Assembly: GCA_947169935.1 (NCBI GenBank)
Contig: CAMVRS010000005.1
Coordinates: 1-63,963, forward strand
Origin: an uncultured Lachnospiraceae bacterium
GTDB taxonomy: Bacteria; Bacillota; Clostridia; Lachnospirales; Lachnospiraceae
Direction of reading: 5' to 3'
Length of the DNA: 63,963 nucleotides
The notes beneath the pieces are model-generated. The model had not been told where the DNA came from. It saw only the letters and a program-made list of their open reading frames with translations, and ran no database searches. A program made the position numbers and the translations under genes. Shown one piece after another: positions 17,548 to 49,526 of the stretch (the first letter of the stretch is position 1; every line of letters starts with the position of its first letter).

Positions 17548-18459
17548 CTATAACAGCGACAGAAGCAGCGGGATGGTGGCGATGGATACCACAGTTGTCA
17601 GCGCTATCGCGGAAGAGAGTATACGTGTATCTTCTCCGTTTTTTTCGGCCTGGATCATGGGCAGATTTCCTACCGGAACGGCTGCCATCAGGCACATGGC
17701 CTGAATGGAGATATCATCAAACTTAAGGGCACGCATAACAAATACGATCGCTAAGGGAACGAGCAGCATCCTCAGTCCCACATAAACCCAGAGCCTTATA
17801 TCCTTCAGGGACTCTCCAAGATGTGAGCGTGATATGTTTACTCCCAGCAGTGCCATAGAGATAAAAATCGTGGCGTTGCCGGTATATTGTATGGTATTTG
17901 CGATTATGGGTGGAGGAGTCAGTCTGAACCAGAAGACAACCAGACTGAGAACCGCCATGATGATGCCGGGATTGATGATGTTTTTGAGTTCGATCCGGCC
18001 CTTTTTTCCGCTTAATACGCTTATGCCGTGGGTATAGAAAAGAACACTGTAGAAGATGTTTATGACTATGACATAGATTATGGCGTTATCGGGCAGTATT
18101 GCCTTTGCGATGGGAATGCCCAGAAAGCCGGTGTTGGTATAGACCGTCATCAGGTTGTAGAATTTCCGCTTATCCGGCGCGGAGCGCAGTATCAGGGGCA
18201 GCAGAAAACCAAGTATTATCAGCAGAAGATAAAAACAAAAGCCCAGTATCCCTGCAGTGATAAGGTCTTCATGGGTAGCGGTGATATTGCCGGACAGGAT
18301 AGAAGCCATGATAAGTGCGGGATTGCATACGTCAACGACTATAGCGGATAATTTCTTTGAGGTAAGGCTGTCCACAACTCCTTTCTTTTCCAGAAGGATG
18401 CCGATGGATACCAGTATGACGATCACGCCCATCTGTTGTAAAAGTATGGATAAGCTCAT
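17548..18459 (-). CDS. AEC-family (auxin efflux carrier type) permease
   Basis: 303 residues, almost entirely membrane-embedded, with about ten hydrophobic segments in two halves separated by a short polar centre. The N-terminal pattern VILVSIGILLEKKGVV and the DVCNPALIM segment are typical of AEC transporters (YwkB/MleP type), which carry organic anions such as malate. The substrate cannot be read from the sequence. It lies upstream of uvrA on the same strand. The start has no ribosome binding site: the -10 box ends 7 nt before the ATG, so the mRNA is probably leaderless. Confidence 0.9.
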   Translation of the reverse strand: MSLSILLQQMGVIVILVSIGILLEKKGVVDSLTSKKLSAIVVDVCNPALIMASILSGNITATHEDLITAGILGFCFYLLLIILGFLLPLILRSAPDKRKFYNLMTVYTNTGFLGIPIAKAILPDNAIIYVIVINIFYSVLFYTHGISVLSGKKGRIELKNIINPGIIMAVLSLVVFWFRLTPPPIIANTIQYTGNATIFISMALLGVNISRSHLGESLKDIRLWVYVGLRMLLVPLAIVFVMRALKFDDISIQAMCLMAAVPVGNLPMIQAEKNGEDTRILSSAIALTTVVSIATIPLLLSLL

Positions 18460-18466
18460 TCTGTCA

Positions 18467-18494
18467 ATAATAGCACAAAGCTTTCTGCTGTCAA
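18467..18494 (-). promoter_or_regulatory. Promoter of the AEC permease with -10 box abutting the start codon
   Basis: On the minus strand: TTGACA (18489-18494), 16-nt spacer, extended TGC-TATTAT (18467-18472), then only 7 nt to the ATG (18459). No Shine-Dalgarno is present. Confidence 0.7.
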
Positions 18495-18573
18495 GAAAGT
18501 AATGTGCCTTCCAATGGTGCTAAACAACTATATAGAAGGGGTTATGTATACTAATATTTGTGAAAAAATAATC

Positions 18574-18602
18574 TTTCCAAATCAGCCTGTTTGGCTTATA
18601 AT
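18574..18602 (+). promoter_or_regulatory. Likely sigma-A promoter of mbl
   Basis: TATAAT (18597-18602), preceded at 17 nt by TTTCCA (4 of 6 match). The leader of about 45 nt contains GGAAAGG before the ATG at 18655. Confidence 0.55.
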
Positions 18603-18654
18603 TTTAACTCGGACGTTTTTACCATTTCGCTTTTTGGAAAGGGGTTTTATATAT

Positions 18655-19656
18655 ATGGCAGGCACTGATGTCGGTATAGATCTGGGAACAGCCAGCATAC
18701 TTGTTTATATAAAGGGAAAGGGAGTCGTGTTAAAGGAGCCCTCTGTGGTTGCCTTTGACCGTGATGATAATAAGATAAAGGCCATAGGCGAGGACGCCAG
18801 GCTTATGATAGGACGTACACCCGGCAATATAGTCGTAGTGCGCCCTCTGCGTCAGGGAGTTATATCCAATTACACCGTTACCGAACAGATGATGAAGCAT
18901 TTCCTTGATAAAGCTCTCGGTAAAAGAGGCTTACGCTTCAAAAAGCCCAGGGTGGCAGTCTGCGTGCCCAGCGGCGTTACCGAGGTTGAGAAGAAGGCGG
19001 TTGAAGATGCTACTTATCAGGCGGGCGCAGGTAAGGTGGCAATCATCGAAGAGCCTATTGCAGCAGCTATAGGTGCAGGTATCGATATCGCAAAGCCCCA
19101 GGGTAATATGATCGTGGATATCGGAGGCGGAACAACGGACGTTGCGGTAATATCCCTGGGCGGTACGGTTGAGAGCGCATCTATCAAGATAGCCGGTGAC
19201 GATTTTGACGAAGCCATTGTGCGTTACATGAGAAAGAAATACAATCTTCTGGTGGGTGACCGTACCGCAGAGGATATCAAGATAAATATCGGCACCGCAT
19301 ATAAGCGTGCGGAAGTTGATTATATGGATGTAAAGGGACGTAATCTGGTATCGGGTCTGCCCGAGACCGTACGTGTATCATCTGACGAGACAACGGAGGC
19401 TCTGCGTGAGACCACCTCGCAGATACTGGATACCATCTGCGCCGTACTTGAGAAAACTCCCCCGGAACTGGCGGGAGATATCGTTGACAGGGGTATAGTG
19501 CTCACAGGCGGCGGTTCCATGCTGCGCGGCCTGGAGGAGCTTATCGAGGAGCGCACCCATATCAATACCATGACGGCTGACGAGCCCATGACCTGCGTGG
19601 CAATAGGAACAGGTAAGTATATCGAGTTCCTGGCAGGTTATAATGATGAAGCTTAG
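18655..19656 (+). CDS. mbl: MreB/Mbl-family rod-shape actin homologue
   Basis: 333 residues, the standard length. It is an actin-like ATPase that forms membrane-associated filaments directing lateral wall synthesis. Actin-fold motifs are visible: the phosphate-1 loop DVGIDLGTAS at residues 4-13, phosphate-2 MIVDIGGGTTDVAV and the adenosine motif GIVLTGGGSML. The start at 18655 is chosen over an upstream in-frame start because GGAAAGG precedes it and MreB proteins begin here. It is followed by two FlgF/G-type genes, as in B. subtilis mbl-flhO-flhP, which supports the Mbl assignment over MreB. It is divergent from the AEC permease. Confidence 0.93.
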   Translation: MAGTDVGIDLGTASILVYIKGKGVVLKEPSVVAFDRDDNKIKAIGEDARLMIGRTPGNIVVVRPLRQGVISNYTVTEQMMKHFLDKALGKRGLRFKKPRVAVCVPSGVTEVEKKAVEDATYQAGAGKVAIIEEPIAAAIGAGIDIAKPQGNMIVDIGGGTTDVAVISLGGTVESASIKIAGDDFDEAIVRYMRKKYNLLVGDRTAEDIKINIGTAYKRAEVDYMDVKGRNLVSGLPETVRVSSDETTEALRETTSQILDTICAVLEKTPPELAGDIVDRGIVLTGGGSMLRGLEELIEERTHINTMTADEPMTCVAIGTGKYIEFLAGYNDEA

Positions 19657-19659
19657 GCA

Positions 19660-19687
19660 TAAAGTTTTGTGAAGCATGAGCCGATAA
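19660..19687 (+). promoter_or_regulatory. Sigma-D/sigma-28 (flagellar) promoter
   Basis: TAAAGTTT (19660-19667), 12-nt gap, GCCGATAA (19680-19687). This is nearly the textbook FliA/SigD sequence with a spacer one base longer than in enterics. It starts 4 nt after the mbl stop and gives flhO-flhP their own motility-controlled transcript. Confidence 0.8.
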
Positions 19688-19743
19688 AAATTATAAGATT
19701 CATTCCGGGCATGGATTTTATGTTATCATGAACATGAATTTTA

Positions 19744-19771
19744 TGTCATTCTGAGCGAAGCGAAGAATCTT
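19744..19771 (+). repeat. GNA mini-hairpin repeat, copy 2
   Basis: Variant with outer stem ATTCT/AGAAT and centre GC-GAA-GC. It lies in the leader between the sigma-D promoter and flhO, 63 nt before the start codon. Confidence 0.85.
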
Positions 19772-19834
19772 ATATATGTACATGGAAGAGATTATCTGGC
19801 ACGGATGCCGGCAGAGTAATATGGAGGGCTATCC

Positions 19835-20623
19835 ATGCTGAAAGGGCTTTATGTTGCATATACAGGCATGCTCCAGGAGCAGAGGCGAATGGACAATCTG
19901 GCCAACAATCTGGCCAATGCCGACACCACGGGTTTTAAGAAAGAAGGGCTTTCCAGCCAGACTTTCGAGACCGTGCTGGTGGACAAGATCAAAGACGGTT
20001 CTGAAGGATACCGCTACGCAAACAGAATAGGCAGCGCCAATCCGGGCGTTAAGATAGGCGAGAGCTATGTGGACTGGTCGGAAGGCTCATTCCAGGTGAC
20101 CGACATTCCCATGGATATGGCTATCGGTGGCAGAGGTTTCTTCACTGTGGAATTCACCAATAAAAATCAGGAATCTACAACACTATATACCCGTGACGGT
20201 AACTTCCAGATGACTACCGACGGCTATCTGGTCACCACCGACGGTGATTATGTGCTGGGGAAAGACGGCAATACCAACAAGAGGATCAAGCTGGATCCCA
20301 CTAAAGAGATCTCGGTGGATCAGCAGGGTTTCATATTCCAGGACGGCAAGCAGGTAGCACAGCTGGCGATCACGGATTTTGACGATTATAATTATCTTGA
20401 ACACTACGGTGAGAATTATTATTATCCCGTTGACGGAGCCACACAGAGAGCGGCTACCGGCCAGGTTTTCCAGGGATACCTTGAAACCAGTAACGTAAGC
20501 GTGGTCAGGGAAATGGTGGAGATGATAAGCGTATCCCGCCAGTACGAAGCAAACCAGAAGGTCATCCAGACCTATGACACTTCGCTGCAGACAGCAACAC
20601 AGCTGGGTAAGTTAAACGGATAA
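19835..20623 (+). CDS. flhO: Flagellar rod/hook-basal body protein (FlgF/FlgG family)
   Basis: 262 residues. The N-terminus (GMLQEQRRMDNLANNLANADTTGFKKE) is the coiled rod domain of axial flagellar proteins, with the NLANxxTxGFK motif. The middle is the FlgF/FlgE/FlgG beta domain (GRGFFTV...LYTRDGNF...DGYLV). The C-terminus (QGYLETSNVSVVREMVEMI...) is the second half of the coiled rod. The order after mbl matches B. subtilis flhO. It is secreted through the flagellar export gate and builds the rod. TGGAGGG precedes the ATG. It sits 16 nt upstream of its paralogue. Confidence 0.93.
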   Translation: MLKGLYVAYTGMLQEQRRMDNLANNLANADTTGFKKEGLSSQTFETVLVDKIKDGSEGYRYANRIGSANPGVKIGESYVDWSEGSFQVTDIPMDMAIGGRGFFTVEFTNKNQESTTLYTRDGNFQMTTDGYLVTTDGDYVLGKDGNTNKRIKLDPTKEISVDQQGFIFQDGKQVAQLAITDFDDYNYLEHYGENYYYPVDGATQRAATGQVFQGYLETSNVSVVREMVEMISVSRQYEANQKVIQTYDTSLQTATQLGKLNG

Positions 20624-20638
20624 CAGGAGGTTTTCAAT

Positions 20639-21457
20639 ATGGTACGTTCATTATGGTCAGGCGCGACCGGAATGCTGGCGCAGCAGACGGCGGTCGACGT
20701 TATATCAAATAATATCGCAAACGTTAATACTGCAGGTTTCAAGACCGGCCAGATGGAGTTCAAATCCCTGCTTTATCAGGAACTCCAGACAAAGACTACC
20801 AGCGCAAACGGCGATACCAAGCCTATTGATTCGCAGGTTGGTCTGGGTGTGCGTAATTCCTCCATAACCACGATCTTTACCCAGGGTGCGTTCCTTGAAG
20901 CGGGAAACAACACGGCATTTGCTATCGGCGGCGATGGTCTTTTCGGGGTAAAGCTTGCAGACGGCACCACAGCTTATACCCGCAACGGTGATTTCCATTT
21001 TGCTCTGCATGCGCAGGGACTTGAGCTTACGGATTCCAACGGTAATGCCGTTCTGGACACCAAAGGACAGCCTATCATTATCAAGGGTGAGGAGTATATG
21101 TCCAGCAGGATAACGATATCGGGCGACGGTGAGCTTTTCTATCCCGATGAGGATAATAATCCCAAGTCCATGAACATAAAGATCGGCTTGTGGCAGTTCA
21201 ACAACCCTGCCGGCCTTGAAAAGCGAGACAGTTCGCTTTATGTAGAGACTGCAGCCAGCGGCAAGCCTTTAAATGAGGCAGACAACAGAACTCTTTCAAA
21301 GAGCAAGATAGTGCAGGGATACCTGGAAGGCTCCAATGTACAGCTGGCAGACGAGATGGTAAACCTGATCATAGCCCAGAGAGCATACGAAGCCAACAGC
21401 CGTGTCATCACTACATCCGATACCATGATGCAGCAGGCTAACCAATTAAAACAGTAA
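20639..21457 (+). CDS. flhP: Flagellar distal rod protein (FlgG family)
   Basis: 272 residues, with the same three-part layout as its upstream neighbour: N-terminal ISNNIANVNTAGFK, central GGDGLFGV...AYTRNGDF and C-terminal QGYLEGSNVQLADEMVNLI followed by QRAYEANSRVI. It forms the rod of the flagellar basal body. AGGAGG stands 8 nt before the start. It is transcribed with flhO from the sigma-D promoter and followed by an inverted pair of hairpin repeats. Confidence 0.95.
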   Translation: MVRSLWSGATGMLAQQTAVDVISNNIANVNTAGFKTGQMEFKSLLYQELQTKTTSANGDTKPIDSQVGLGVRNSSITTIFTQGAFLEAGNNTAFAIGGDGLFGVKLADGTTAYTRNGDFHFALHAQGLELTDSNGNAVLDTKGQPIIIKGEEYMSSRITISGDGELFYPDEDNNPKSMNIKIGLWQFNNPAGLEKRDSSLYVETAASGKPLNEADNRTLSKSKIVQGYLEGSNVQLADEMVNLIIAQRAYEANSRVITTSDTMMQQANQLKQ

Positions 21458-21463
21458 ATAGAT

Positions 21464-21497
21464 AGGATTCTTCGGGCTGATGCCGTCAGAATGACAC
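21464..21497 (-). repeat. Degenerate GNA-hairpin repeat in reverse orientation
   Basis: GATTCTTCG (21466-21474) and TCAGAATGACAC (21486-21497) match the ends of the reverse complement of the repeat, with a divergent centre. It is head to head with copy 3, so ATGACAC and GTGTCAT can pair across 5 nt. Confidence 0.7.
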
Positions 21498-21503
21498 GCA
21501 GGG

Positions 21504-21531
21504 TGTCATCCTGAGCGAAGCGAAGGATCTT
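21504..21531 (+). repeat. GNA mini-hairpin repeat, copy 3
   Basis: Outer stem ATCCT/AGGAT, centre GC-GAA-GC. It ends 17 nt before the start codon of the rod-binding gene, so it fills that gene's 5' leader up to the ribosome binding site. Confidence 0.85.
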
Positions 21532-21548
21532 TATGAGAGGTACATTAT

Positions 21549-21956
21549 ATGGATATAACTAACATCACAGCCATGACCGATTACGCCTCATCCCTGGCGT
21601 CTGCGCAGAATACCGATAAGCTTAAGTCCAATGCAAAGACAGCGCAGACCGATGATGAGATGCTTGATGCCTGTAAGGAGTTTGAAACCTATCTCTGGGA
21701 GCAGGTCATAAAATCCATGAAGAAATCCGCGGAGGTTTTCTCCGACGGAAATGAAGACCAGACGGTAAGCTATTTTATGGACAGCGCCATTACCGAAACG
21801 GCAAGGCAGATGACGGAGCAGACCATGGGAAGCAACAGCCTGGCTATGCAGATGTATGAACAGATGAAAAGAAATGCCGGCGGTCTTACGCTGGAAGAGA
21901 TAATGGAAAAGCAGGCCGCCTCGGGAACGGTGGCCGGCAATACGGAAGGAGAATGA
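21549..21956 (+). CDS. Flagellar rod-binding (FlgJ N-domain-like) protein
   Basis: 135 residues. The core (MLDACKEFETYLWEQVIKSM...QTVSYFMDSAITETARQM) matches the rod-binding domain of FlgJ, with the conserved FExxLxxxMxK-like helix pair and the C-terminal LAxQMYEQM segment. The muramidase domain of proteobacterial FlgJ is absent, as usual in Firmicutes. It probably caps or scaffolds the growing rod made by the two upstream genes. GAGAGG precedes the ATG. It ends before a hairpin at 21962. Confidence 0.88.
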   Translation: MDITNITAMTDYASSLASAQNTDKLKSNAKTAQTDDEMLDACKEFETYLWEQVIKSMKKSAEVFSDGNEDQTVSYFMDSAITETARQMTEQTMGSNSLAMQMYEQMKRNAGGLTLEEIMEKQAASGTVAGNTEGE

Positions 21957-21961
21957 TAAGT

Positions 21962-21995
21962 CGCCCTCTTTAGAAAATGAAGAGGGCGATCGTTT
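21962..21995 (+). terminator. Terminator-like hairpin before recD2
   Basis: CGCCCTCTT (21962-21970) and AAGAGGGCG (21980-21988) form a perfect 9-bp stem followed by ATCGTTTT. It probably ends the flagellar transcript. It is only 13 nt from the recD2 start. Confidence 0.75.
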
Positions 21996-22001
21996 TAATA
22001 T

Positions 22002-24218
22002 ATGGATACTATCAAAGGTTACATAGATCACATTACATATCAGACCGACGACGGTTATACCGTCATGACTCTGGCCGCCTCTGACGGCAGCAAGACCTGT
22101 GTCGGTTTTGCAAAGGATTACAGTCCCGGTGAGACAGTGGAGCTTGAAGGTACCTGGGTGGATCATAACATTTACGGCAGGCAGTTCAAGTTTACATCCA
22201 TAAAGGCAGTCCCCCCTTCTGACAGGATATCCGTGATACGCTATCTGGGCTCCGGCGCCGTTAAGGGCGTGGGGGAAAAGATGGCTGTGCGTATCGTGGA
22301 TAAATTCGGGGATGATACTTTCCGCATAATGGAAGAAGAGCCGGAGAGGCTGGCTGAGATAAAAGGCATATCCCTGCGCATGGCACAGGAACTGGCTGGG
22401 CAGCTTGCGGGTAAGCGCGACCGCCGTAACGCCATGATCTTTCTGCAGCAGTACGGCATCAGTCTGACCATAGCCGACAGGATATACGAGATATACGGTA
22501 ATGATGTTTACAATGTAATAAAGAACAACCCCTACAGGCTGGCGGAAGATGTGCCTGCTGTGGGCTTTAAGAAGGCTGACGCAATAGCGGTAAAGGCCGG
22601 CATAAGTATGGATTCCGAATACAGGATCTGCAGCGCAGTGATCTATGAGCTGGGGATGGAAGCGGCGGAAGGCCACTGTTATTTTCCTATGGAGGATCTG
22701 TGTGACAGGGTATCCCGTATGTTAAATCTTGATAAGGAGCTTATCAGCGAACAGCTTCCGGTGATGGCACTGGACCACAGAATAGAAATAAAGAACACTC
22801 CCGAAGGAGCGCGGGTATATTCCCCGGGGTATTTCCGGGCGGAGAAATTCTGTGCGGAGAAGCTGCTGCAGCTGAGAGATGCATATGAAAAAAGCGACGA
22901 CGGCGATGAGGACTGGCTGCCGGAGCTGGAAAAAGATATGGGAATGGAGCTGGATGAGCTGCAGAGAAGGGCCGTAAAACTCAGTGATGAGAGCGGCGTA
23001 TTGATACTGTCCGGCGGACCCGGTACCGGAAAGACCACCACGATAAATGCGATAATCAGGCGCATGCAGGATAAGGGGCTTGAATTTGTACTGGCTGCGC
23101 CTACAGGCAGGGCGGCCAAGCGTATGAACGAAGCTACCGGCTACGAGGCAAAGACCATACACAGGCTGCTTGAGATGGGGGCGGACCAGAACGAGCTCCG
23201 TTTTGAAAGAAATGAGGATGAGCCCCTGGAAGCCGACTGTGTGATCATCGATGAGATGAGCATGGTGGATATATGGCTGCTGAAGGCGCTGCTGGCTGCC
23301 ATTGCTCCCGGCAGCAGGCTTATCATGGTGGGAGATGTGGACCAGCTGCCCAGCGTCGGCCCGGGACAGGTGCTCAGGGACATAATGGACAGTAACGAAT
23401 TCTCTGTTGTACGTCTTCAGAGGATATTCAGACAGTCCGGTGACAGCCATATAGTGGAAAACGCCCATAAGATAAACAGGGGAGAGCATCTGGATCTTTC
23501 GGTTAAATATGAGGACTTCTTCCTGCTGGAAAAGGACAGGGTGGAAGTGATACAGGAGTATCTGGTGAAGCTCATTTCCGATGTGCTGCCCAGAAAGCTT
23601 GGTCTTTCTTCCGGGGACATACAGGTCATGACGCCCATGAGAAAAGGCCTTTTAGGAGTTGAAGGCTTAAATGAGATGCTGCAGGAGAGGCTCAATCCCG
23701 CCCGTGAAGATAAGGCGGAAGTACCCTACGGCGACAGGGTATTCCGTAACGGCGACAAGGTCATGCAGATAAAGAACGACTACCAGCTTGAGTGGGAGAT
23801 CATAGGGGATCATAATGTCTGCGTGGCTTCCGGCAGCGGGGTCTTTAACGGCGACGTGGGAGTCATCACCCAGATAAATTCGTATCTGAAGCTGGTGGAG
23901 GTTCATTTTGACGATGGCAGGAAGGTATACTATCCCTTCCAGCAGCTTGATGAACTTGAACTGGCTTATGCGGTAACCATACATAAATCGCAGGGAAGTG
24001 AGTATCCCCTGGTAATACTGCCTGTTCTTTCGGGGCCGGAAATGCTCATGTCCAGGAATCTGCTCTATACCGCCGTTACCAGGGCGAAGCGCTGTGTTAT
24101 CCTTATAGGCAGTAATGACAGGATACAGCAGATGATAGATAACGATCATGTACAGCACAGATACACCTCGCTCTGCGAGCGTATAAAGGAAGCCGGTGAG
24201 ATGAGGAATGATGCTTAA
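22002..24218 (+). CDS. recD2: RecD2-type ATP-dependent DNA helicase
   Basis: 738 residues, typical of RecD2 (YrrC). It unwinds DNA 5'-3' and acts in repair without RecBC. An OB-like N-terminus (GYIDHITYQTDDGYTVMTL) fixes the start. Next come helix-hairpin-helix segments (GVGEKMAVRIV, KGISLRMAQELAG). Superfamily 1B motifs follow: Walker A GGPGTGKTT at about 338, Walker B VIIDEMSM, GDVDQLPSVGPG, and motifs VMTPMRKGLLGV and YAVTIHKSQGSEYP near the end. No ribosome binding site precedes the ATG. The only purine-rich stretch lies inside the hairpin just upstream. The 3' end overlaps comFC by 11 nt. Confidence 0.95.
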   Translation: MDTIKGYIDHITYQTDDGYTVMTLAASDGSKTCVGFAKDYSPGETVELEGTWVDHNIYGRQFKFTSIKAVPPSDRISVIRYLGSGAVKGVGEKMAVRIVDKFGDDTFRIMEEEPERLAEIKGISLRMAQELAGQLAGKRDRRNAMIFLQQYGISLTIADRIYEIYGNDVYNVIKNNPYRLAEDVPAVGFKKADAIAVKAGISMDSEYRICSAVIYELGMEAAEGHCYFPMEDLCDRVSRMLNLDKELISEQLPVMALDHRIEIKNTPEGARVYSPGYFRAEKFCAEKLLQLRDAYEKSDDGDEDWLPELEKDMGMELDELQRRAVKLSDESGVLILSGGPGTGKTTTINAIIRRMQDKGLEFVLAAPTGRAAKRMNEATGYEAKTIHRLLEMGADQNELRFERNEDEPLEADCVIIDEMSMVDIWLLKALLAAIAPGSRLIMVGDVDQLPSVGPGQVLRDIMDSNEFSVVRLQRIFRQSGDSHIVENAHKINRGEHLDLSVKYEDFFLLEKDRVEVIQEYLVKLISDVLPRKLGLSSGDIQVMTPMRKGLLGVEGLNEMLQERLNPAREDKAEVPYGDRVFRNGDKVMQIKNDYQLEWEIIGDHNVCVASGSGVFNGDVGVITQINSYLKLVEVHFDDGRKVYYPFQQLDELELAYAVTIHKSQGSEYPLVILPVLSGPEMLMSRNLLYTAVTRAKRCVILIGSNDRIQQMIDNDHVQHRYTSLCERIKEAGEMRNDA

Positions 24219-24933
24219 GGCCTTGAATGGGAAGATATGTGATCTGCTATTTCCGCCGCGCTGTCCTGTATGCGACAGGGTCATGACGCCCGGGGACAGG
24301 AAAAAGGGCGTATGCGCTGAATGCAGAAATGATCTTAAGCTTATAAAAGAGCCCAGATGCATAAAGTGCGGAGCACAGCTTAAAGCGGATGAGGAAGAAT
24401 ACTGCAGATCCTGCAGGGGGCGCCGGCATTATTATGACCGCGGACTGGCATTATATGAATATGCATCAGTGAGAGGCGCTATATACCGGCTTAAATACAG
24501 CGGACGTTTGGAATACGCCGAATTTTTCGGAAGGGAGATGGCCAGACGTCTGGGACCGGCCATCAGGGAGTGGGGGGCCGAAGCCCTTATTCCCGTCCCG
24601 CTTCATGCATCCAGACAGCGCCGCAGGGGCTATAACCAGGCGGCAGCCATAGCCCGCGCCTGCGGCAGGGCGCTGGATCTGCCGGTGCGGGAAGATATCA
24701 TCCGCAGGGCCAGAAAGACGCGTCCCATGAAGCTTCTGGATGCAAAAGAAAGACAAATAAATTTGAAAAATGCTTTCATTATGCTACAAGATGTAGTAAA
24801 ATTAAGTATAGTTGTTGTCGTGGATGACATATATACCACCGGCAGTACTATAGATGCCATGGCTGCGCTTTTGAAAGCGTCGGGGGTTAAAAAAGTTTAT
24901 TTTGTGACGCTTGCCATTGGCAGTGGGGTTTAA
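24208..24933 (+). CDS. comFC: ComF-family phosphoribosyltransferase-like protein
   Basis: 241 residues. Two N-terminal CxxC pairs (CPVCDR, CAEC, then CIKCG, CRSC) form a zinc-ribbon region. The C-terminal part is a PRTase fold with the PRPP-binding stretch VVVVDDIYTTGSTI and the ComF-typical HASRQRRRGYNQA. ComFC acts in natural competence, or in purine salvage-like reactions on DNA; the exact reaction is unsettled. The start overlaps the recD2 stop; an ATG three bases later is equally possible. It is followed by yvyF as in the B. subtilis comF operon, with recD2 in the place of the ComFA helicase. Confidence 0.93.
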   Translation: MMLKALNGKICDLLFPPRCPVCDRVMTPGDRKKGVCAECRNDLKLIKEPRCIKCGAQLKADEEEYCRSCRGRRHYYDRGLALYEYASVRGAIYRLKYSGRLEYAEFFGREMARRLGPAIREWGAEALIPVPLHASRQRRRGYNQAAAIARACGRALDLPVREDIIRRARKTRPMKLLDAKERQINLKNAFIMLQDVVKLSIVVVVDDIYTTGSTIDAMAALLKASGVKKVYFVTLAIGSGV

Positions 24934-24959
24934 GTATTCATAAGAGAGGAGAAGGACTC

Positions 24960-25370
24960 ATGAATGCGAGAAATTGCAAAAAATGCGGGAAGCTTTTTAA
25001 CTATATTGCTGGGCCACCTATCTGCCAGGCCTGCAAGGAAGCGATAGAGGCTAAATTCCAGGAAGTAAAGGAATTTGTCCGCGAACATAAAACAGCCAGC
25101 ATGAAGGAGATCGTTGCCAACTGCGGAGTTGAGGAACGCCAGGTTGAACAGTGGATACGTGAGGAGAGGCTTGTGTTTGCCACGGATTCCCCTATAAAGC
25201 TTTTCTGTGAAACCTGTGGCGCGCCTATTTTTACAGGGCGTTATTGCGGCAAATGCAAAAATGAAACGGCTAACAGCTTTGGCGCGGCAGGAAGGAAACC
25301 TGAGACGCACCAGGCGCCTGCATCAGGCGGCGGTGCCAGCTCCAGTGCCAGAATGTATTCCCGGAAGTAA
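24960..25370 (+). CDS. yvyF: YvyF-like flagellar operon protein
   Basis: 136 residues. It begins with a CKKCGKLF zinc-ribbon half, followed by CQAC. A helical middle reads like a winged-helix segment (SMKEIVANCGVEERQVEQWIREERL). A second pair CETC...CGKC follows, then a polar tail. This layout matches the YvyF family (TIGR03826), found next to comFC and flgM in Firmicutes; YvyF is linked to flagellar export control. GAGAGGAG precedes the ATG. The four paired cysteines suggest one or two zinc sites. Confidence 0.85.
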   Translation: MNARNCKKCGKLFNYIAGPPICQACKEAIEAKFQEVKEFVREHKTASMKEIVANCGVEERQVEQWIREERLVFATDSPIKLFCETCGAPIFTGRYCGKCKNETANSFGAAGRKPETHQAPASGGGASSSARMYSRK

Positions 25371-25376
25371 GGAAAG

Positions 25377-29083: not shown

Positions 29084-29093
29084 CGGGCCTGCC

Positions 29094-29122: not shown

Positions 29123-29182
29123 TATCTTTTAATAAGGGGTTATGGGGTTAAAATACAGTAAGATGTTTTGGAGGAAATGCCA

Positions 29183-32005: not shown

Positions 32006-32482
32006 TTAAGGCAATACCTTTAAGCACATAAGGCATGCAAGAAATACGCCTATTATGATACCCACGATAACCTGAAGAGGTGTATGTCCAAGGAATTCCT
32101 TAAGACGGTCATCGGGGGAAAGATTGCTCCAGTCGATCTGATCCATCCTCTCCATGGTATCCATCATTTCATTAAGTACCTGAGCGTGTTTGCCGGCCTG
32201 GCGGCGTATGCCAAGGGCATCGTACATGACGATTATGGCAAGAGATGCTGCAAGCGCAAAATCAACGGAATCAGGACCGCACTTAATGAATACCGCCGTG
32301 GCCAGAGCAGTCACTGTGGCAGAATGGGAACTGGGCATACCGCCTGTCCCTATAAGCCTTTCGGCTACGAAGTTACGGGTGAGTACGGTGTGTAATATGG
32401 ATTTCATGACCTGGGCTACAAACCAGGCCGATACCGCCGACATAAGGATGGGATTGTGAAACAGTTCATATAAGTAACGCAT
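32006..32482 (-). CDS. DUF212 family membrane protein (acid phosphatase/haloperoxidase-related)
   Basis: 158 residues, YuiD-like. Three or four hydrophobic segments surround the conserved GTGGMPSSHSATVTALA stretch and RRQAGKHA. These resemble the SxxxH and basic phosphate-binding motifs of the PAP2/vanadium haloperoxidase superfamily. Its substrate is unknown; lipid phosphates are likely. There is no Shine-Dalgarno: the -10 box TATAAT ends 6 nt before the ATG, so the mRNA is probably leaderless. It is the only minus-strand gene between leuA and the GT-C gene. Confidence 0.9.
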   Translation of the reverse strand: MRYLYELFHNPILMSAVSAWFVAQVMKSILHTVLTRNFVAERLIGTGGMPSSHSATVTALATAVFIKCGPDSVDFALAASLAIIVMYDALGIRRQAGKHAQVLNEMMDTMERMDQIDWSNLSPDDRLKEFLGHTPLQVIVGIIIGVFLACLMCLKVLP

Positions 32483-32488
32483 GCGTCT

Positions 32489-32517
32489 ATTATATAGGTT
32501 AGCCCCAAAAAAAACAA
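32489..32517 (-). promoter_or_regulatory. Promoter of the DUF212 gene abutting the start codon
   Basis: On the minus strand: TTGTTT (32512-32517), 17-nt spacer, TATAAT (32489-32494), then 6 nt to the ATG. Confidence 0.65.
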
Positions 32518-32555: not shown

Positions 32556-32583
32556 TGTCATCCTGAGCGAAGCGAAGGATCTT
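32556..32583 (+). repeat. GNA mini-hairpin repeat, copy 4
   Basis: Outer stem ATCCT/AGGAT, centre GC-GAA-GC. It ends 33 nt before the TTG start of the fucose synthase gene. Confidence 0.85.
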
Positions 32584-34933: not shown

Positions 34934-34962
34934 TGGATATATGAGCATTTATCTGATATAAT
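34934..34962 (+). promoter_or_regulatory. Promoter abutting the phosphoglycosyltransferase start codon
   Basis: TGGATA (34934-34939), 17-nt spacer, extended TGA-TATAAT (34957-34962), then 8 nt to the ATG at 34971. No Shine-Dalgarno precedes that ATG. Confidence 0.6.
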
Positions 34963-34970: not shown

Positions 34971-36371
34971 ATGAAGAAGCTGGAAACTTCCAGAAGGGTT
35001 ATAATGCTGTTTTTATCATTTTTGAACCTGGCTGCGCAGGTCGCAGGCTTTGCGCTGTGCTGGTTCTGGTATTATAAACCCTTCTTAAAAGCTACATGGG
35101 GCATTGAGTTCTGGGAAAAGGGTGATATCACGCTGATCGCAGTTTATCTGGTGATATTGTTCATGTTCTCGCGTATGTACGGCGGTACCCGTGTAGGATA
35201 TCTAAAGGCCTGGGAGGTATTCTTCTCCCAGATATTCTCGACCCTTATCGCAAATGTTATGGCCTATGCGGTCCTGGCACTGATGGCTACCAAGGTGATC
35301 CCCGCCAGGGAGCTGCTTATACTGACAGCCATACAGTTTGCCTGGATAGCGGTGTGGACTGCGTCGGCGCAGTTCGTATACAGCTGTCTGTTCCCGCCGC
35401 GGGATCTGCTTCTGGTGAGCGGAGAGCGTTCGACTGACGGGATACTTCAAAAATTTGCCAGCCGTCCTGATAAGTATAATATCTGCAAATGTATGGATAT
35501 CGCGGAAGGCGTGCCCGCTATCTGTGAGGAGGTGGAGAAACGCTATGACGGTCTGGTGCTCTGGGATATTCCCACAAAGGAGCGTAATATGCTTCTTAAG
35601 TATTGCTATGCCAGATCTCTGCGCGTCTATATCATGCCCAAGATCCCCGATGTGCTGGTAAAAGGTACGGAGGAACTTCACATCTTTGATACACCTATCT
35701 ATCTTATACGCGAGTACGCCCTTACCGTGGAGCAGAGGGCTGCCAAGCGTATCATTGACATTGTATGTTCGTTTATCCTGCTGATACTGGCTTCGCCTTT
35801 TATGCTGTTGGTGGCGCTGGCTGTAAAGATCTACGATGGCGGTCCGGTATTGTATAAGCAGGTGCGCTGCACCATAGGAGGCAGGGAATTCAAGATACTT
35901 AAATTCCGCAGTATGAGGGTAGACGCAGAGAAGGATGGCGTTGCCAGACTGGCGGCGAAGAAGGATGACCGTATCACTCCTGTGGGCCGTTTTATCCGTG
36001 CCTGCAGGCTGGATGAGCTTCCGCAGCTCTGGAATATCTTAAAGGGAGAGATGAGTTTTATAGGCCCCAGGCCTGAACGCCCCCAGCTTATAAAGGAATA
36101 TGAGAAGGAGATGCCGGAATTTGTATTCCGTATGAAGGTAAAGGCCGGACTGGCAGGCTATGCCCAGGTTTACGGCAAGTACAACACCACTCCTTATGAC
36201 AAACTGAAACTCGATCTTACTTACATAGAGAATTATTCGGTATGGCTTGATCTTAAGCTGATGCTGCTGACTCTTAAGATACTCTTTAAGCCCGAGGCAA
36301 CAGAGGGCGTGGATAATGAGACGCATCAGAAGGAAAAGGCCGGGGAGGAGAAGAAAGTTGAAGGGGAATGA
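34971..36371 (+). CDS. Polyprenyl-phosphate sugar phosphotransferase starting polysaccharide synthesis
   Basis: 466 residues. It transfers a sugar-1-phosphate to undecaprenyl phosphate, the first step of repeat-unit assembly. Four N-terminal hydrophobic segments (about 10-150) are followed by a Rossmann-like middle, one more membrane hairpin (IVCSFILLILASPFMLLVAL) and the catalytic domain with KFRSMR, DELPQLWNIL and SFIGPRPERP. The ATG at 34971 has no ribosome binding site and sits 8 nt after a -10 box. An alternative ATG at 35004 has GAAGGG 5 nt before it. The C-terminal end overlaps the Wzz-like gene. Confidence 0.94.
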   Translation: MKKLETSRRVIMLFLSFLNLAAQVAGFALCWFWYYKPFLKATWGIEFWEKGDITLIAVYLVILFMFSRMYGGTRVGYLKAWEVFFSQIFSTLIANVMAYAVLALMATKVIPARELLILTAIQFAWIAVWTASAQFVYSCLFPPRDLLLVSGERSTDGILQKFASRPDKYNICKCMDIAEGVPAICEEVEKRYDGLVLWDIPTKERNMLLKYCYARSLRVYIMPKIPDVLVKGTEELHIFDTPIYLIREYALTVEQRAAKRIIDIVCSFILLILASPFMLLVALAVKIYDGGPVLYKQVRCTIGGREFKILKFRSMRVDAEKDGVARLAAKKDDRITPVGRFIRACRLDELPQLWNILKGEMSFIGPRPERPQLIKEYEKEMPEFVFRMKVKAGLAGYAQVYGKYNTTPYDKLKLDLTYIENYSVWLDLKLMLLTLKILFKPEATEGVDNETHQKEKAGEEKKVEGE

Positions 36372-39295: not shown

Positions 39296-39321
39296 TATAT
39301 CGCCGGCCAAAGGGAGGGGTT

Positions 39322-40113: not shown

Positions 40114-40116
40114 TCT

Positions 40117-43810: not shown

Positions 43811-43819
43811 GCTGCCACG

Positions 43820-43867
43820 TGTCATCCTGAGCGCTAAAATGCGTGTCATCCTGAGCGCTAAAATGCG
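43820..43867 (+). repeat. Two 24-bp tandem units built from the 5' half of the GNA-hairpin repeat
   Basis: Units start at 43820 and 43844 and are identical. Each carries the first 15 bases of the repeat followed by TAAAATGCG. They run straight into a full copy at 43868 with the same 24-nt phase. Confidence 0.85.
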
Positions 43868-43895
43868 TGTCATCCTGAGCGCAGCGAAGGATCTT
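43868..43895 (+). repeat. GNA mini-hairpin repeat, copy 5
   Basis: Outer stem ATCCT/AGGAT, centre GC-GCA-GC, followed by a T run. It ends 15 nt before the ATG of the next glycosyltransferase and abuts that gene's ribosome binding site. Confidence 0.85.
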
Positions 43896-43910
43896 TTTTA
43901 GAGGTAAACT

Positions 43911-44909: not shown

Positions 44910-44911
44910 GT

Positions 44912-44941
44912 TTGACACTGTCCGGAAAATAATGATACAAT
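44912..44941 (+). promoter_or_regulatory. Promoter abutting the ABC exporter start codon
   Basis: Perfect TTGACA (44912-44917), 18-nt spacer, extended TGA-TACAAT (44936-44941), then 10 nt to the ATG. No Shine-Dalgarno is present. Confidence 0.75.
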
Positions 44942-44951
44942 CACGGGCTGT

Positions 44952-46694
44952 ATGATAAAGACACTGAAAAAACTGAATAAGCTGCTGGATAAAAAACAGA
45001 AGAGTTTCATGATGGTGCTGCTTCTCATGATGCTCTTCGGAGCTGTTCTGGAAACGGCCAGCGTAGCGATAATCGTACCTGTAGTGACTCTGTTGATGGA
45101 CAGTGATGCCATAACAGATAACGCTCTTGTTTCGGGTATATATGATTTTCTTCATTTCAGTTCACACAGGGCGTTTATAATTACCGTAATGCTCTCGCTG
45201 ATATTTATATTCATCTTTAAGAATCTGTATCTGTACATACAGCAGAAGGTGCTGTTCCGTTTTGTATATACCAACCAGTTCCGTACTTCGGAGCGCATGA
45301 TGAAGAATTACATGCGTAAGGATTATGAGTTTTATCTCAATGCAGATACGGCGGTGATACAGAGGAATATCACTTCGGATGTAAATAATATGTACGCCCT
45401 GATACTTTCGCTCCTGCAGCTTCTGTCGGAGAGCATAGTTTTTGTATTTGTGGTAGTGGTGCTCTTTATCGCGGATCCCGCAATGACCCTGATGATCGCG
45501 ACACTGCTTCTTATCACACTTTTTATCATCAAGTCGGTTTTGAAACCCCTTATGCATAAAGCTGGAAAGGATAACCAGGATTATTATTCGGATCTGTTCA
45601 AATGGATAAGCGAAGCGGTTACGGGTATCAAGGATATAAAGACCGGCGGCCGTGAACAGTATTTTATAGATGAATACATAAAGTGCGGAAACGGCTATGT
45701 CAATGCCGTTCAGAAGTATACGCTCTATAACAATATTCCCCGCCTTCTGATCGAAACGGTATGTGTTGTGGCCATGGTGCTTTACATGCTGATACTTATG
45801 TTATCCGGCAGGGACACATCCCAGATGATGGCGATAATCGGCGCATTCGGTATAGCGGTCATGCGTCTTATGCCCTGCGCCAATAGAATAAATAACCAGC
45901 TGAACAATATCGCATACTTTGAGCCTTTCCTTATGGGTGTATCCGATAATCTTCAGGATGAGATAAACATTGATATCAGTGAGAACGAATTTGATCCCGA
46001 TGTAAAGAAACTCCCTGTAAAGGAAAAGATCGAGCTTAAGGATATCTGTTATCATTATCCTAACAGCGATGTGCAGATATACGATCATGCAAGCCTTACC
46101 ATACCCGTCGGAAAGAGTGTGGGTATCGTGGGCAGTTCCGGAGCAGGCAAGTCCACGATAGTGGATGTGCTGCTGGGACTTTTGAAGATACAGGAGGGCA
46201 GCATCACGGCAGACGGCGCGGATGTGCTGGACGGGAAGAATTACCGCGGCTGGCTTAGAAATATCGGTTATATACCCCAGAGCATCTTTATGCTGGATGC
46301 CACCATAAGACAGAATGTGGCTTTTGGCGTACCTGAGGAAAAGATCAGCGAAGAGCGTATCTGGCAGGTACTTAAGGATGCGCAGCTCGATGAGTTTGTA
46401 AAGTCCCTTCCGGAAGGGCTTGATACAGGCATAGGAGAGCGGGGAGTACGTCTTTCCGGCGGACAGAGACAGCGTATAGGAATAGCCCGCGCACTTTACG
46501 AGGACCCCGAAGTACTGATCCTGGATGAGGCTACCAGCGCGCTTGATAATGATACGGAGAGCGCTATCATGGATTCCATCAACCGTTTCCAGGGCGAGAA
46601 GACCATGGTGATAATAGCCCACCGTCTGCAGACTATAGAAAAATGCGATATGGTATTCCGCGTTGAAGACGGAGCCATCAAGAGGGAGAGATGA
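44952..46694 (+). CDS. ABC exporter (PglK/MsbA-like, fused permease and ATPase)
   Basis: 580 residues. Six hydrophobic segments in the first 330 residues are followed by the ATPase domain: Walker A GSSGAGKST, Q-loop IPQSIFM, signature LSGGQRQRI, Walker B VLILDEATSALD and the switch His in IIAHR. In this cluster the likely job is flipping lipid-linked repeat units or exporting glycan, since no Wzx gene is seen. The start has no ribosome binding site and lies 10 nt after a -10 box. Its stop overlaps the next gene by 4 nt. Confidence 0.93.
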   Translation: MIKTLKKLNKLLDKKQKSFMMVLLLMMLFGAVLETASVAIIVPVVTLLMDSDAITDNALVSGIYDFLHFSSHRAFIITVMLSLIFIFIFKNLYLYIQQKVLFRFVYTNQFRTSERMMKNYMRKDYEFYLNADTAVIQRNITSDVNNMYALILSLLQLLSESIVFVFVVVVLFIADPAMTLMIATLLLITLFIIKSVLKPLMHKAGKDNQDYYSDLFKWISEAVTGIKDIKTGGREQYFIDEYIKCGNGYVNAVQKYTLYNNIPRLLIETVCVVAMVLYMLILMLSGRDTSQMMAIIGAFGIAVMRLMPCANRINNQLNNIAYFEPFLMGVSDNLQDEINIDISENEFDPDVKKLPVKEKIELKDICYHYPNSDVQIYDHASLTIPVGKSVGIVGSSGAGKSTIVDVLLGLLKIQEGSITADGADVLDGKNYRGWLRNIGYIPQSIFMLDATIRQNVAFGVPEEKISEERIWQVLKDAQLDEFVKSLPEGLDTGIGERGVRLSGGQRQRIGIARALYEDPEVLILDEATSALDNDTESAIMDSINRFQGEKTMVIIAHRLQTIEKCDMVFRVEDGAIKRER

Positions 46695-48316
46695 AGGAAA
46701 TTATCCTTAAATACAAAGATAAAGCGGTATACCTGATCTCGATGATGCTTTTTGTCGTTATCAGTTACATGAGCGTAAAATACTGTAATGCAGGGCATTC
46801 CTACGAACAGGATCTGCCTTTCCGTGTGGCATGCATAAGCATAGCGCTGATAGTGCTTATCAACCTGCCGCTTAAAGATACGCTGACTGTCTGGTCTGTG
46901 ATCTGGATCCCCATCTGTTATTTCATTACGCATGTCGGTTATGAAAAACACTGGATACCGGATAACTGCGATTACCAGTTTGTGGAGCTGATACGCCTTG
47001 GCAAGCTGGTAGCTCTTACCTGGGGTCTTATGATCATAGCCGTTATCAAGAATATAGTCAGGGAAGATCTGGTACGTAAATTCCTGGCGTGGATCAATGA
47101 GGCCGGCAGATTAAAGAAAACCGTTGCGCTGCTCTGGATCTTATATGCGGCTGTGCTCACGGTCATTAATCCCGGATATGAGTATGTGATAGTCTTCACC
47201 ATAGGTTTTCCCGCTGCCCTTGTGGCCTGCAGGGAAAAAGAAAAAGCTAAGGCGCTTTTAAACGCCTACCTTGACGGCATGCTTTTATGCTTCCTGATAC
47301 TATCCGTAAAATCCATGCTGCACCGGCCCTATGATACGGAGCGCTATCTGTTCTATTTTTCCAATGAGAATATGGCAGGCATGTATCTTTCCGTGATAAT
47401 GATCACCATGGTATACAGACTGGGGAAGGCATGGGCTATGGCAAAGTCACGCTTAAGGACGCTGTTTCTTATAGCAGGGCATTTGCTTATCGTATGGACC
47501 GGCGTTTTGGTGATGTTTAATTATACGCGTACCTATCTGCTGGGTATGGGCTTTTCACTTTTTGTATATTTCTGCGTACGCCTTTTTGTACACAGGGAAA
47601 AGAAAGCATTTCTGCTTCGTTTCTTCCTGCCGGTGATACTTATAATTGTCTGTTTCTATCCGGGATATCTTACTTTACGTTATCTTCCGGCATTTTCAAA
47701 CGATCCGGTTTATTTTACCGGTGAATGGGGGAATGATACCAGAGTACAGCCGGATGATCCCATAGATTCACCCCATTATACAAGTATCAAACGCTATCTG
47801 CGCCTGGCTTTCGGCAAGCTGGGTATCAGTCTGGACCTGGATGACGGGGAACAGAGGGAGGAGCAGTCTTCATTTGTTGAGATAGAAGAAGACCGCGATG
47901 TTTCCAATGGCCGCATGTTTGTCTGGAAGAATTTCCTGCAGCGCATGAACATAAGAGGCCATTATCCCGGACATATAGTTCTTGACGGAGACTGGGTAAT
48001 ATATCATGCCCACAATACTTATTTCCAGAATATGTTCCAGTTCGGCATACCCGTGGGTCTGTTCTTCGGGCTGCTGATACTGCTCACGTATATTTTTGCG
48101 GTGATATCTTTTGCAAAGAAGAGAAGCGGCAGCTTTGCGATGCTGGCCATGGGAAATATGATGGTGGCAATGCTGACGGAGTGGTCAGGACATCCGGCCT
48201 ATCCTTTCGGAATGTTTTTACTGCTGACGCTTCTCTGTCTTGTTTTCACGAAGACCGCCGATGAAAAGGCAGATGACAAAGCAGACGGTAGCAGCGAAGT
48301 CGCCGAAGGAAAATAG
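46691..48316 (+). CDS. Wzy/WaaL-like O-antigen polymerase or ligase
   Basis: 541 residues with about 11-12 hydrophobic segments. A long loop near residues 340-440 carries NGRMFVWKNFLQ and the conserved YHAHNTYFQNMFQFGIPVG block, typical of Wzy/WaaL (Wzy_C) enzymes, which use His and Arg there. Start coupled to the ABC exporter by a 4-nt overlap. The last 22 residues (TKTADEKADDKA...) form a charged tail whose coding sequence overlaps the end of the opposite-strand GT-C gene. Confidence 0.88.
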   Translation: MKEIILKYKDKAVYLISMMLFVVISYMSVKYCNAGHSYEQDLPFRVACISIALIVLINLPLKDTLTVWSVIWIPICYFITHVGYEKHWIPDNCDYQFVELIRLGKLVALTWGLMIIAVIKNIVREDLVRKFLAWINEAGRLKKTVALLWILYAAVLTVINPGYEYVIVFTIGFPAALVACREKEKAKALLNAYLDGMLLCFLILSVKSMLHRPYDTERYLFYFSNENMAGMYLSVIMITMVYRLGKAWAMAKSRLRTLFLIAGHLLIVWTGVLVMFNYTRTYLLGMGFSLFVYFCVRLFVHREKKAFLLRFFLPVILIIVCFYPGYLTLRYLPAFSNDPVYFTGEWGNDTRVQPDDPIDSPHYTSIKRYLRLAFGKLGISLDLDDGEQREEQSSFVEIEEDRDVSNGRMFVWKNFLQRMNIRGHYPGHIVLDGDWVIYHAHNTYFQNMFQFGIPVGLFFGLLILLTYIFAVISFAKKRSGSFAMLAMGNMMVAMLTEWSGHPAYPFGMFLLLTLLCLVFTKTADEKADDKADGSSEVAEGK

Positions 48317-49489
48317 TTTTTCGATTCTTTCCTGTATCCCGGCGAGAGCCGAAAAGCCATCCTGCAGCGCAAAGCCGTATACAAATACCGTATTTGCAAG
48401 CTGCAGCAGGCTGAAACAGATGTAAAAAGCCAACAGGGATTTTGAAGGTTTATAGATATACGCAAGGGCCAGCAAAATAAGGCCCGAGAGCATATAACGC
48501 TCATGCATGCCCGTTGCGAAGCAGAATACGGGAAGTATTAGCGAAGCCCCCAGCAGGGGGTATTTTTTTTCGTCTTTTCTGTAAAGGAAAGCCAGGATGA
48601 AGCACAGAAGCGTTATACCTATGATAGCCAGTTTTCCCCAGGTACCGCAGGGGATACCTATGAAGGTGGTGTCCATGCTGCACCAGCCGCGGTTTACCAG
48701 CATCCAGAAATTATAAGCCCCAACGCTTACATAGGGCATGCCGCTCTGTACGGAGAGATACTGCTTAAGCATCTCACCCAGTCCGAAGGGGAGGCTGATC
48801 AGGAGCATGGCGGCGATCACGGCCATGCCCCAGCCGATCACGGGGACGGTTCTGCGGTTGAAAAAACGATGTTTTTCAACCGCAGAACCGTCCCCGTGAT
48901 CGGCCGGAAATACCTGCTCAAAGACAGCAACCATCAGTACAGGCGCAAAAGTAAGAGTCTGCTGCTTCAGCATCAGTCCTGCGCCAAAGCAGATAAAAGC
49001 CTGCGGCAGTTTCTTTTCGCACAGGAATACACACATCAGTGCCACGGCAAGGGTGAATACGGCATCGGTCTGGCCCCACATGGAAGAGTTGTGTATCAAT
49101 GCAGGATTAAAGGTATAAGCGGCGGTGAATATCAGAGCCTTCTTATCGTCAAGCCGCTTTGAAGCAACATGCCAAATAAGACATGCACCGGCGATATCGC
49201 AGATTATGGGAGGCAGTTCTATGATCAGCTCCCTGAGGCCGGGATCGCTGATATTAAAAACCTTCAGGATAAGTCCCAGTACCCAGAGTATATACAGATA
49301 AAGCGGAGGATAGGGCCACTGCACTTCGGGACCGTAAAAGTGAGCAAATCCGGTCTCCACTATGCGCTGCGCCCAGTCCTTCATGGTCTCAGGATAAGGC
49401 GGATAGCTGTATCCCAGTATAAGCCTGAGCAGCAGTCCTGCTCCCAGTATTATGATCAGTATGGTGTTTGTACGCTTATTTTTGCTCAT
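48218..49489 (-). CDS. GT-C type membrane glycosyltransferase with palindrome-encoded insert
   Basis: 423 residues with about ten hydrophobic segments. The first extracytoplasmic loop has YPPYPETMKDWAQRI, with FYGPEVQWPYPPLYLYIL after it; this resembles polyprenyl-phosphate mannosyl/hexosyltransferases (GT39/GT87-like), with an acidic catalytic residue in that loop. The donor would be a polyprenyl-phosphate sugar. Residues about 196-219 are encoded by a 72-bp perfect palindrome and look like an insertion in a loop. The start has no ribosome binding site and lies 7 nt after a -10 box. The 3' end overlaps the Wzy/WaaL-like gene by 99 nt. Confidence 0.88.
   Translation of the reverse strand: MSKNKRTNTILIIILGAGLLLRLILGYSYPPYPETMKDWAQRIVETGFAHFYGPEVQWPYPPLYLYILWVLGLILKVFNISDPGLRELIIELPPIICDIAGACLIWHVASKRLDDKKALIFTAAYTFNPALIHNSSMWGQTDAVFTLAVALMCVFLCEKKLPQAFICFGAGLMLKQQTLTFAPVLMVAVFEQVFPADHGDGSAVEKHRFFNRRTVPVIGWGMAVIAAMLLISLPFGLGEMLKQYLSVQSGMPYVSVGAYNFWMLVNRGWCSMDTTFIGIPCGTWGKLAIIGITLLCFILAFLYRKDEKKYPLLGASLILPVFCFATGMHERYMLSGLILLALAYIYKPSKSLLAFYICFSLLQLANTVFVYGFALQDGFSALAGIQERIEKLFSFGDFAATVCFVICLFIGGLRENKTEKRQQ
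48833..48904. repeat. Perfect 33-bp inverted repeat (72 bp) inside a coding gene
   Basis: Arms 48833-48865 and 48872-48904 are exact reverse complements around a 6-nt centre. Each arm contains the block GGGGACGGTTCTGCGGTTG or its complement. The length is 24 codons, in frame with the GT-C gene. No second copy was seen in the window. Confidence 0.95.
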
Positions 49490-49496
49490 GAGGGAG

Positions 49497-49526
49497 ATTA
49501 TAATTCACTTCATTCGGGAGTGTCAA
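49497..49526 (-). promoter_or_regulatory. Promoter abutting the GT-C gene start codon
   Basis: On the minus strand: perfect TTGACA (49521-49526), 18-nt spacer, perfect TATAAT (49497-49502), then 7 nt to the ATG (49489). Confidence 0.8.

Follow-up and report, generated by a model that had tools for sequence, protein, structure and literature searches.

Candidate leaderless starts in a Lachnospiraceae-type genus: a minor mode that favours polytopic membrane proteins without being reserved for them

In the present study, we analysed a 63,963-nucleotide (nt) stretch of DNA from an uncultured Lachnospiraceae bacterium (assembly GCA_947169935.1, contig CAMVRS010000005.1), hereafter the window, together with further genomes of the same genus, for genes that seem to be transcribed from the start codon onwards, without a leader and without a Shine-Dalgarno (SD) site. 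Judging from the sequence, ordinary promoters quite probably give rise here to leaderless mRNAs, as a minor mode that favours polytopic membrane proteins and divergently oriented genes and serves cytosolic enzymes too. Three findings carry this conclusion. First, -10 boxes in front of SD-less ATG codons are concentrated 6-10 nt before the ATG, and decoy hexamers are rarely called in that place. Second, the leaderless geometry of four of the five window genes concerned recurs in one or more further species of the genus. Third, among genes that come first in their transcription unit (first genes) outside the window, 15/117 encoding polytopic proteins were called leaderless compared with 25/862 others (odds ratio 4.9, p 2e-5).

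Materials and methods

Genes were called with a caller of our own that uses two codon models and chooses starts with regard to SD sites and blind to -10 boxes. A gene was called leaderless when a plausible ATG had an SD energy above -4.5 kcal/mol and no competing start with a strong SD; when a -10 box that had A2 and T6 fixed and differed from TATAAT in no more than one position lay before this ATG at a distance, the gap, of 5-11 nt; and when the promoter was supported by exact TATAAT, by a TG extension or by a -35 box with at most two mismatches. The rule demands ATG, so that AUG as start codon is an observation at the five window sites and a criterion elsewhere. Proteins with at least three hydrophobic segments, counted by hydropathy, were taken as polytopic.

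In total, 2.46 Mb of sequence was surveyed in four genomes belonging to one genus, whose named relatives are Lachnospiraceae: 1.259 Mb of G000, the window's own genome (4.21 Mb in 306 contigs, about 30% of which was thus read), and 0.4 Mb each from G006, G001 and G003. These samples have some orthologues in common. Outside the window, the survey yielded 979 first genes, 117 polytopic and 862 other. Contigs C1-C29 of G000 had already been inspected when the rule was coded; contigs C30-49 and the samples from G006, G001 and G003 had not. Because the decoy TAATAT has TATTAT and TAAAAT in common with the real rule, which inflates its counts, genes that had a real -10 box near the start were left out of the survey's decoy tally. 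Ten loci from named records, all phosphoglycosyltransferase matches in metagenome assemblies (nine Lachnospiraceae, one Bacillota; five from rumen or omasum), were included in the comparison; two of them, L257 and L259, probably belong to the same genomes as G006 and G004 (contigs G006:C116 and G004:C443).

Results

Counted for single gaps in the four samples, window included, calls numbered 14, 18, 8, 6 and 11 at gaps of 6, 7, 8, 9 and 10 nt, and the remaining gaps between 0 and 39 gave 0-6 calls each; leaderless calls came to 56 in total. Of the 979 first genes outside the window, 40 were called with the real box, compared with 3, 2 and 2 for three decoy hexamers. Leaderless starts would accordingly be a minor mode, at about 4% of first genes in the genus (40/979). 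TTG-like bases at the -35 position are over-represented in the 56 calls, in part as a consequence of the selection criterion.

Two simpler searches were rejected as evidence. The exact pattern TTGACAN16-18TATAATN6-9ATG was present in 35/35 genomes of the genus and 55/60 of the family, with few matches in reversed controls. Among 30 such loci read in the genus, 21 opened fewer than 60 codons and nine opened at least 60, one of the nine being polytopic; the one of 62 amino acids (L290) looks spurious. As the loci are mostly short, most would be cases of an ordinary promoter followed by an ATG by chance, and the set shows no membrane bias. A looser count of TATAATN5-10ATG in G000 (520 versus 300 in the reversed sequence) was likewise set aside.

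Within the window, the first-pass annotation had described five promoters with a -10 box ending 6-10 nt before the ATG, no SD site and polytopic products throughout. All five sites were as described (Table 1): SD energies at the five ATGs range from +0.5 to -2.5 kcal/mol, and 5/5 of the leaderless calls encode polytopic proteins. In keeping with its statement that first genes for soluble or secreted products have leaders with AGGAGG-like sites, none of the 19 SD-led first genes of the window, with SD energies of -5.0 to -12.3 kcal/mol, is polytopic. One more called first gene, at 24930-25310 on the minus strand, has an SD energy of -2.5 and no leaderless call, and is a doubtful open reading frame (ORF). 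Of the 457 window ATGs followed by an open frame of 150 codons or more, 12 are SD-less and next to a -10 box, namely 5/39 called gene starts versus 7/418 other ATGs (p = 0.0018). A decoy hexamer matched at 5/457, two of these matches having TATTAT, which fits the real rule too; one of the two is the AEC permease site. The ABC exporter lies 42 nt downstream of a co-directional neighbour and would form a separate transcription unit because it has a promoter of its own.

Comparison with relatives gave a different picture for each of the five starts. The AEC permease is the exception to the recurrence mentioned above: 0/6 same-genus orthologues have the leaderless geometry, and all six have an SD of -6.2 kcal/mol or stronger. 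For DUF212, one of nine orthologues, that of G006, is SD-less with a gap of 6; the remaining eight are SD-led (-5.4 to -10.7 kcal/mol), and a -10 box at gaps of 16-20 is also present in three of these. The phosphoglycosyltransferase has gaps of 8 and 9 in G005 and G009 (2/11 same-genus orthologues at gaps of 6-10) and of 11 in G001; an SD of -5.9 kcal/mol or stronger was found in 6/11, and G002 and G008 have -4.5 and -3.5. At the named-record loci, gaps of 8-9 were seen in 5/10 (L253-L256 and L260), and L261 has -10 boxes at gaps of 1 and 15. For the ABC exporter, one of eight readable same-genus starts, in G006, has TTGACG-17-TAAAAT with a gap of 8; two have a strong SD (-5.4 kcal/mol or stronger), and the others have neither SD nor geometry. 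The GT-C-like gene has a gap of 6 in G006, where the protein is 53% identical and the one near-full-length close relative among 20 genomes, and a gap of 7 in another relative, in G028. By sequence comparison, the starts of DUF212, the ABC exporter and the AEC permease are similar in near relatives. The leaderless state thus appears to be kept across real divergence in some lineages and swapped for leadered starts in others, and the leaderless starts postulated by the first-pass annotation appear to be backed by this conservation and by the peak at 6-10 nt.

The same comparison bears on the idea that the starts are artefacts of start calling, the true ones being downstream SD-led ATGs or the promoters chance matches. 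Our caller's choice of start did favour 35004 for the phosphoglycosyltransferase and 18432 for the AEC permease, and the many short ORFs behind exact-consensus promoters (21/30) show that chance matches occur. However, the N-terminus of the phosphoglycosyltransferase is conserved from its first ATG (34971) in 10/11 same-genus orthologues, so that the start at 35004, which the first-pass annotation had named as a possible refutation, is unlikely, and the N-terminus of the AEC permease is conserved from 18459 in G005 and G006. The position peak and the low decoy counts also argue against an artefact, which we regard as unlikely overall.

With respect to the products, the leaderless share was 15/117 in polytopic first genes, 5/200 in those with one or two hydrophobic segments and 20/662 in those with none. 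Leaderless calls in the inspected contigs C1-C29 comprised 8/42 polytopic and 7/283 other first genes; in the uninspected samples taken together they comprised 7/75 and 18/579 (p 0.017). The difference was retained when the G006 calls orthologous to G000 calls (two polytopic, one soluble) were removed and soluble pairs of G001 and G003 were kept (13/115 versus 24/861, p 1e-4), and when only exact TATAAT was accepted (7/117 versus 10/862, p 0.002). The pooled data therefore support a real bias towards polytopic proteins, with an odds ratio of about 3-5, which is uneven between samples. At the same time, 25 of the 40 leaderless first genes were not called polytopic, although one of them, DUF212 of G006 with two counted segments, probably is, and 102 of the 117 polytopic first genes were not leaderless. 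In other words, the leaderless mode favours membrane proteins and is not reserved for them: the claim of the first-pass annotation that leaderless starts are confined to integral membrane proteins holds in the window and fails in the sampled genomes.

The orientation of the gene is an equally strong factor. For the 938 first genes whose upstream neighbour is known, leaderless calls comprised 26/266 divergent versus 14/672 co-directional genes. The odds ratio for polytopic products is about 3.9 in divergent and co-directional genes alike, and permutation within genome and orientation left the polytopic bias significant (p = 0.0002). Several other properties did not mark the leaderless genes. 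With the window included, neither U content nor structure over the first 50 nt sets them apart, so that a cause in weakly structured 5' mRNA or in U-rich 5' ends of the coding region finds no support in this comparison. A-rich early codons, which were tested too, found no support either.

By Pfam, GidB/RsmG, MecA, an IMS-family (Y-family) polymerase and DUF5717 are among the soluble products of leaderless first genes outside the window. The polytopic products include a GGDEF protein, a MATE transporter, an EAL protein and a histidine kinase whose 7TM-like N-terminus falls just under the cut-off. Three of the polytopic products are signalling proteins (GGDEF, L053:11776-12858; EAL, L039:2915-4861; histidine kinase, L048:18336-19997), and the orthologues of two of these three, the GGDEF and histidine kinase genes, are leaderless in G006. 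A tRNA-synt_His protein, which we take to be HisZ-like, was called leaderless 24 nt downstream of its neighbour. A guanylate-kinase-like protein was called in G006, its G000 counterpart being found only under a looser rule. Two pairs of non-membrane orthologues are leaderless in both G001 and G003 (G001:C6:1459 with G003:C12:59099 and G001:C6:33817 with G003:C12:91376; 63% and 66% identical), which suggests that the mode is conserved for non-membrane products too. Leaderless geometry was also seen at ylxM (UPF0122) in G000, G001 and G003 (L293, L263 and L287): in G000 (G000:C235, ATG at contig position 959) TTGACA-17-CATAAT with a gap of 10, and in G001 and G003 TTGACA..TATAAT with a gap of 9. 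The SRP54 (Ffh) gene lies downstream of ylxM in G001 and G003; in G000 only the start of ylxM was read. A match to the exact pattern in G039 also ends at the YlxM start.

Two further observations concern the window itself. Codon-based gene calling gave the GT-C-like gene too low a score, and it was picked up only as a long ORF in otherwise empty space; its codon use is atypical, and it was perhaps acquired. Its product has no match in Pfam or NCBIfam, and "GT-C" is the label of the first-pass annotation, the hydrophobic segments being the sole feature seen here. A 27-bp repeat, GTCATCCTGAGCGAAGCGAAGGATCTT, occurs in six copies, none being expected in shuffled sequences, and partial extra copies lie upstream of DUF212 and before 43911.

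Table 1. Positions of the five promoter-proximal starts and of the repeat in the window
Feature	Coordinates	Strand	Details
AEC permease promoter	18467..18494	-	-35 TTGACA 18489-18494, 16-nt spacer, TG-extended -10 TATTAT 18467-18472, gap 7 to ATG
AEC-type permease (Pfam Mem_trans)	17548..18459	-	ATG 18459, without SD
DUF212 promoter	32489..32517	-	-35 TTGTTT 32512-32517, 17-nt spacer, -10 TATAAT 32489-32494, gap 6 to ATG
DUF212 / divergent PAP2-family membrane protein (Pfam DUF212)	32006..32482	-	ATG 32482
Phosphoglycosyltransferase promoter	34934..34962	+	weak -35 TGGATA 34934-34939, TG-extended -10 TATAAT 34957-34962, gap 8 to ATG
Polyprenyl phosphoglycosyltransferase (Pfam Bac_transf; EPS_sugtrans above NCBIfam cut-off)	34971..36371	+	ATG 34971
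ABC exporter promoter	44912..44941	+	-35 TTGACA 44912-44917, 18-nt spacer, -10 TACAAT 44936-44941, gap 10 to ATG
ABC exporter (Pfam ABC_membrane + ABC_tran; best NCBIfam PglK and MsbA, both under cut-offs)	44952..46694	+	ATG 44952
GT-C-like gene promoter	49497..49526	-	-35 TTGACA 49521-49526, 18-nt spacer, -10 TATAAT 49497-49502, gap 7 to ATG
GT-C-like polytopic protein, 423 amino acids, 9 hydrophobic segments	48218..49489	-	ATG 49489
27-bp repeat copies	4874-4900, 19745-19771, 21505-21531, 32557-32583, 43869-43895, 56093-56119	+	0-2 mismatches

Discussion

The ribosomes that read leaderless mRNAs are probably whole 70S particles with initiation factor 2 (IF2); they start at the 5'-terminal AUG and make no SD contact. 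From the promoter geometry, the absence of SD sites, the position peak, the conservation and the statistical bias, we infer the following account of where transcription starts, how the mRNAs are translated and what causes the bias. Housekeeping-sigma promoters would lie so near to these genes that RNA synthesis begins at the AUG or within about 3 nt of it, and the product would be a leaderless mRNA. Initiation without an SD might be tolerable or favourable for single-gene transporter, exporter and sensor genes, of which little protein is needed, and where the spacer between divergent genes is short there might be little room for a leader.

The first-pass annotation had proposed a separate translation or targeting route, that is, a dedicated path for integral membrane proteins such as initiation by membrane-bound 70S ribosomes. 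The uniform set of five in the window, the excess of polytopic products outside it and its persistence in the uninspected samples would be expected from such a route, and ylxM, with its leaderless geometry in three genomes, heads a unit in G001 and G003 that also contains the SRP54 (Ffh) gene. However, a route for membrane proteins only is excluded as stated, because soluble enzymes share the mode, most polytopic first genes (102/117) do not, and orthologues in sister species are often SD-led, with energies of -5.4 kcal/mol or stronger in DUF212 (8/9), the AEC permease (6/6), the phosphoglycosyltransferase (6/11) and the ABC exporter (2/8). The 25 of 40 leaderless first genes that are not polytopic and the lack of any mark in U content or structure of the first 50 nt also speak against it, and we consider a dedicated route very improbable. 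Hardly more credible is the related speculation that leaderless initiation has been selected for membrane-protein biogenesis, with leaderless membrane mRNAs and the ylxM-ffh unit of the signal recognition particle (SRP) being co-regulated and responding jointly to 70S-type initiation, e.g. to the ratio of IF2 to IF3.

A more serious possibility is that polytopic genes are poor in SD sites for another reason, such as a low need for synthesis or weak initiation, and that the leaderless promoter is just one SD-free form among others. Among first genes not called leaderless, 23/102 polytopic versus 81/837 others are SD-less (p 0.0003), and within the SD-less first genes the leaderless share differs with a p value of only 0.05 (15/38 polytopic versus 25/106 others). 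The bias nevertheless persists with exact TATAAT, and in G000 also after allowing for codon adaptation. This explanation may well be correct, and we lean only slightly against it.

Several results weigh against our proposal of a leaderless mode with a preference for polytopic products. When the -10 window was shifted to gaps of 12-18 and 19-25, 11 and 12 calls were still obtained among the 979 first genes, of which 6/11 and 3/12 were polytopic; this share, 9/23 in all, is similar to that of the real calls, so that SD-less genes in general account for some of the bias. Its strength also varies between samples, with leaderless calls in 8/53 polytopic versus 9/432 other first genes in G000, 4/19 versus 7/131 in G006, 3/24 versus 6/133 in G001 and 0/21 versus 3/166 in G003. 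Contigs C30-49 of G000 alone gave 0/11 versus 2/149, and all leaderless calls in these contigs, compared with SD-led first genes, were polytopic in 1/4 versus 9/141 cases (p 0.25). The scan for -10 boxes next to ATG codons proposed by the first-pass annotation, carried out on about 30% of G000 and on the three other samples, thus revealed the predicted enrichment in pooled data and none in G003 or in contigs C30-49. The home-made caller misplaces some starts. Finally, leaderless genes, assessed in G000 with rpsB and tsf as reference, do not have significantly lower codon adaptation (p 0.21 and 0.67), so that the low-dosage part of the proposal is unsupported.

Comparable starts have been reported in other bacteria. 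In the sections of Zheng et al. (2011, PMC3160421) on which we draw, bacterial leaderless genes have the same TAtAAT-type signal just before the start, without SD, and make up 4.2% on average in those Firmicutes that have any (56/209 genomes); the share found here, 40/979 first genes, has a different denominator. According to the same source, leaderless genes of Firmicutes are concentrated in Lactobacillales and Mycoplasma, whereas ours occur in a Lachnospiraceae-type genus, and cellular-process categories, envelope biogenesis among them, generally have lower shares of leaderless genes, whereas polytopic proteins are over-represented here. In Streptococcus pneumoniae D39, another Firmicute, 70/768 operons (9%) begin exactly on the coding sequence, and adding a ribosome-binding site to the leaderless pbp2A promoter left luciferase unaffected; the starts were mapped experimentally there, in contrast to the sequence evidence presented here, and the portions of that paper used here mention no bias in product class (PMC6212727). 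For Clostridium acetobutylicum, also a clostridium, 212 leaderless transcripts are given among genes with detected proteins, the choice of start being partly stress-dependent there (PMC4533764); the present evidence comes from sequence. On the figures for these two species, the view of the first-pass annotation that leaderless mRNAs are unusual in Firmicutes is too strong. The geometry of a -10 box within a few bases of the ORF start, which drives leaderless mRNAs in Deinococcus-Thermus according to the part of PMC12340547 considered, is the same as here; it is common there and minor in the present genus.

The findings have practical consequences for annotation. Start annotation that relies on SD sites can misplace leaderless starts, as happened here at two genes (35004 and 18432 preferred), and the genes at risk are often transporters, exporters and sensors. 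Titles and abstract openings of the literature on leaderless starts and membrane proteins yielded no report of such an enrichment. The preference for polytopic products is directly testable in cultured Lachnospiraceae. Should it be borne out by mapped transcripts and extend to other families, leaderless mRNAs would favour certain products in a way that the accounts of Firmicutes drawn on here do not describe.

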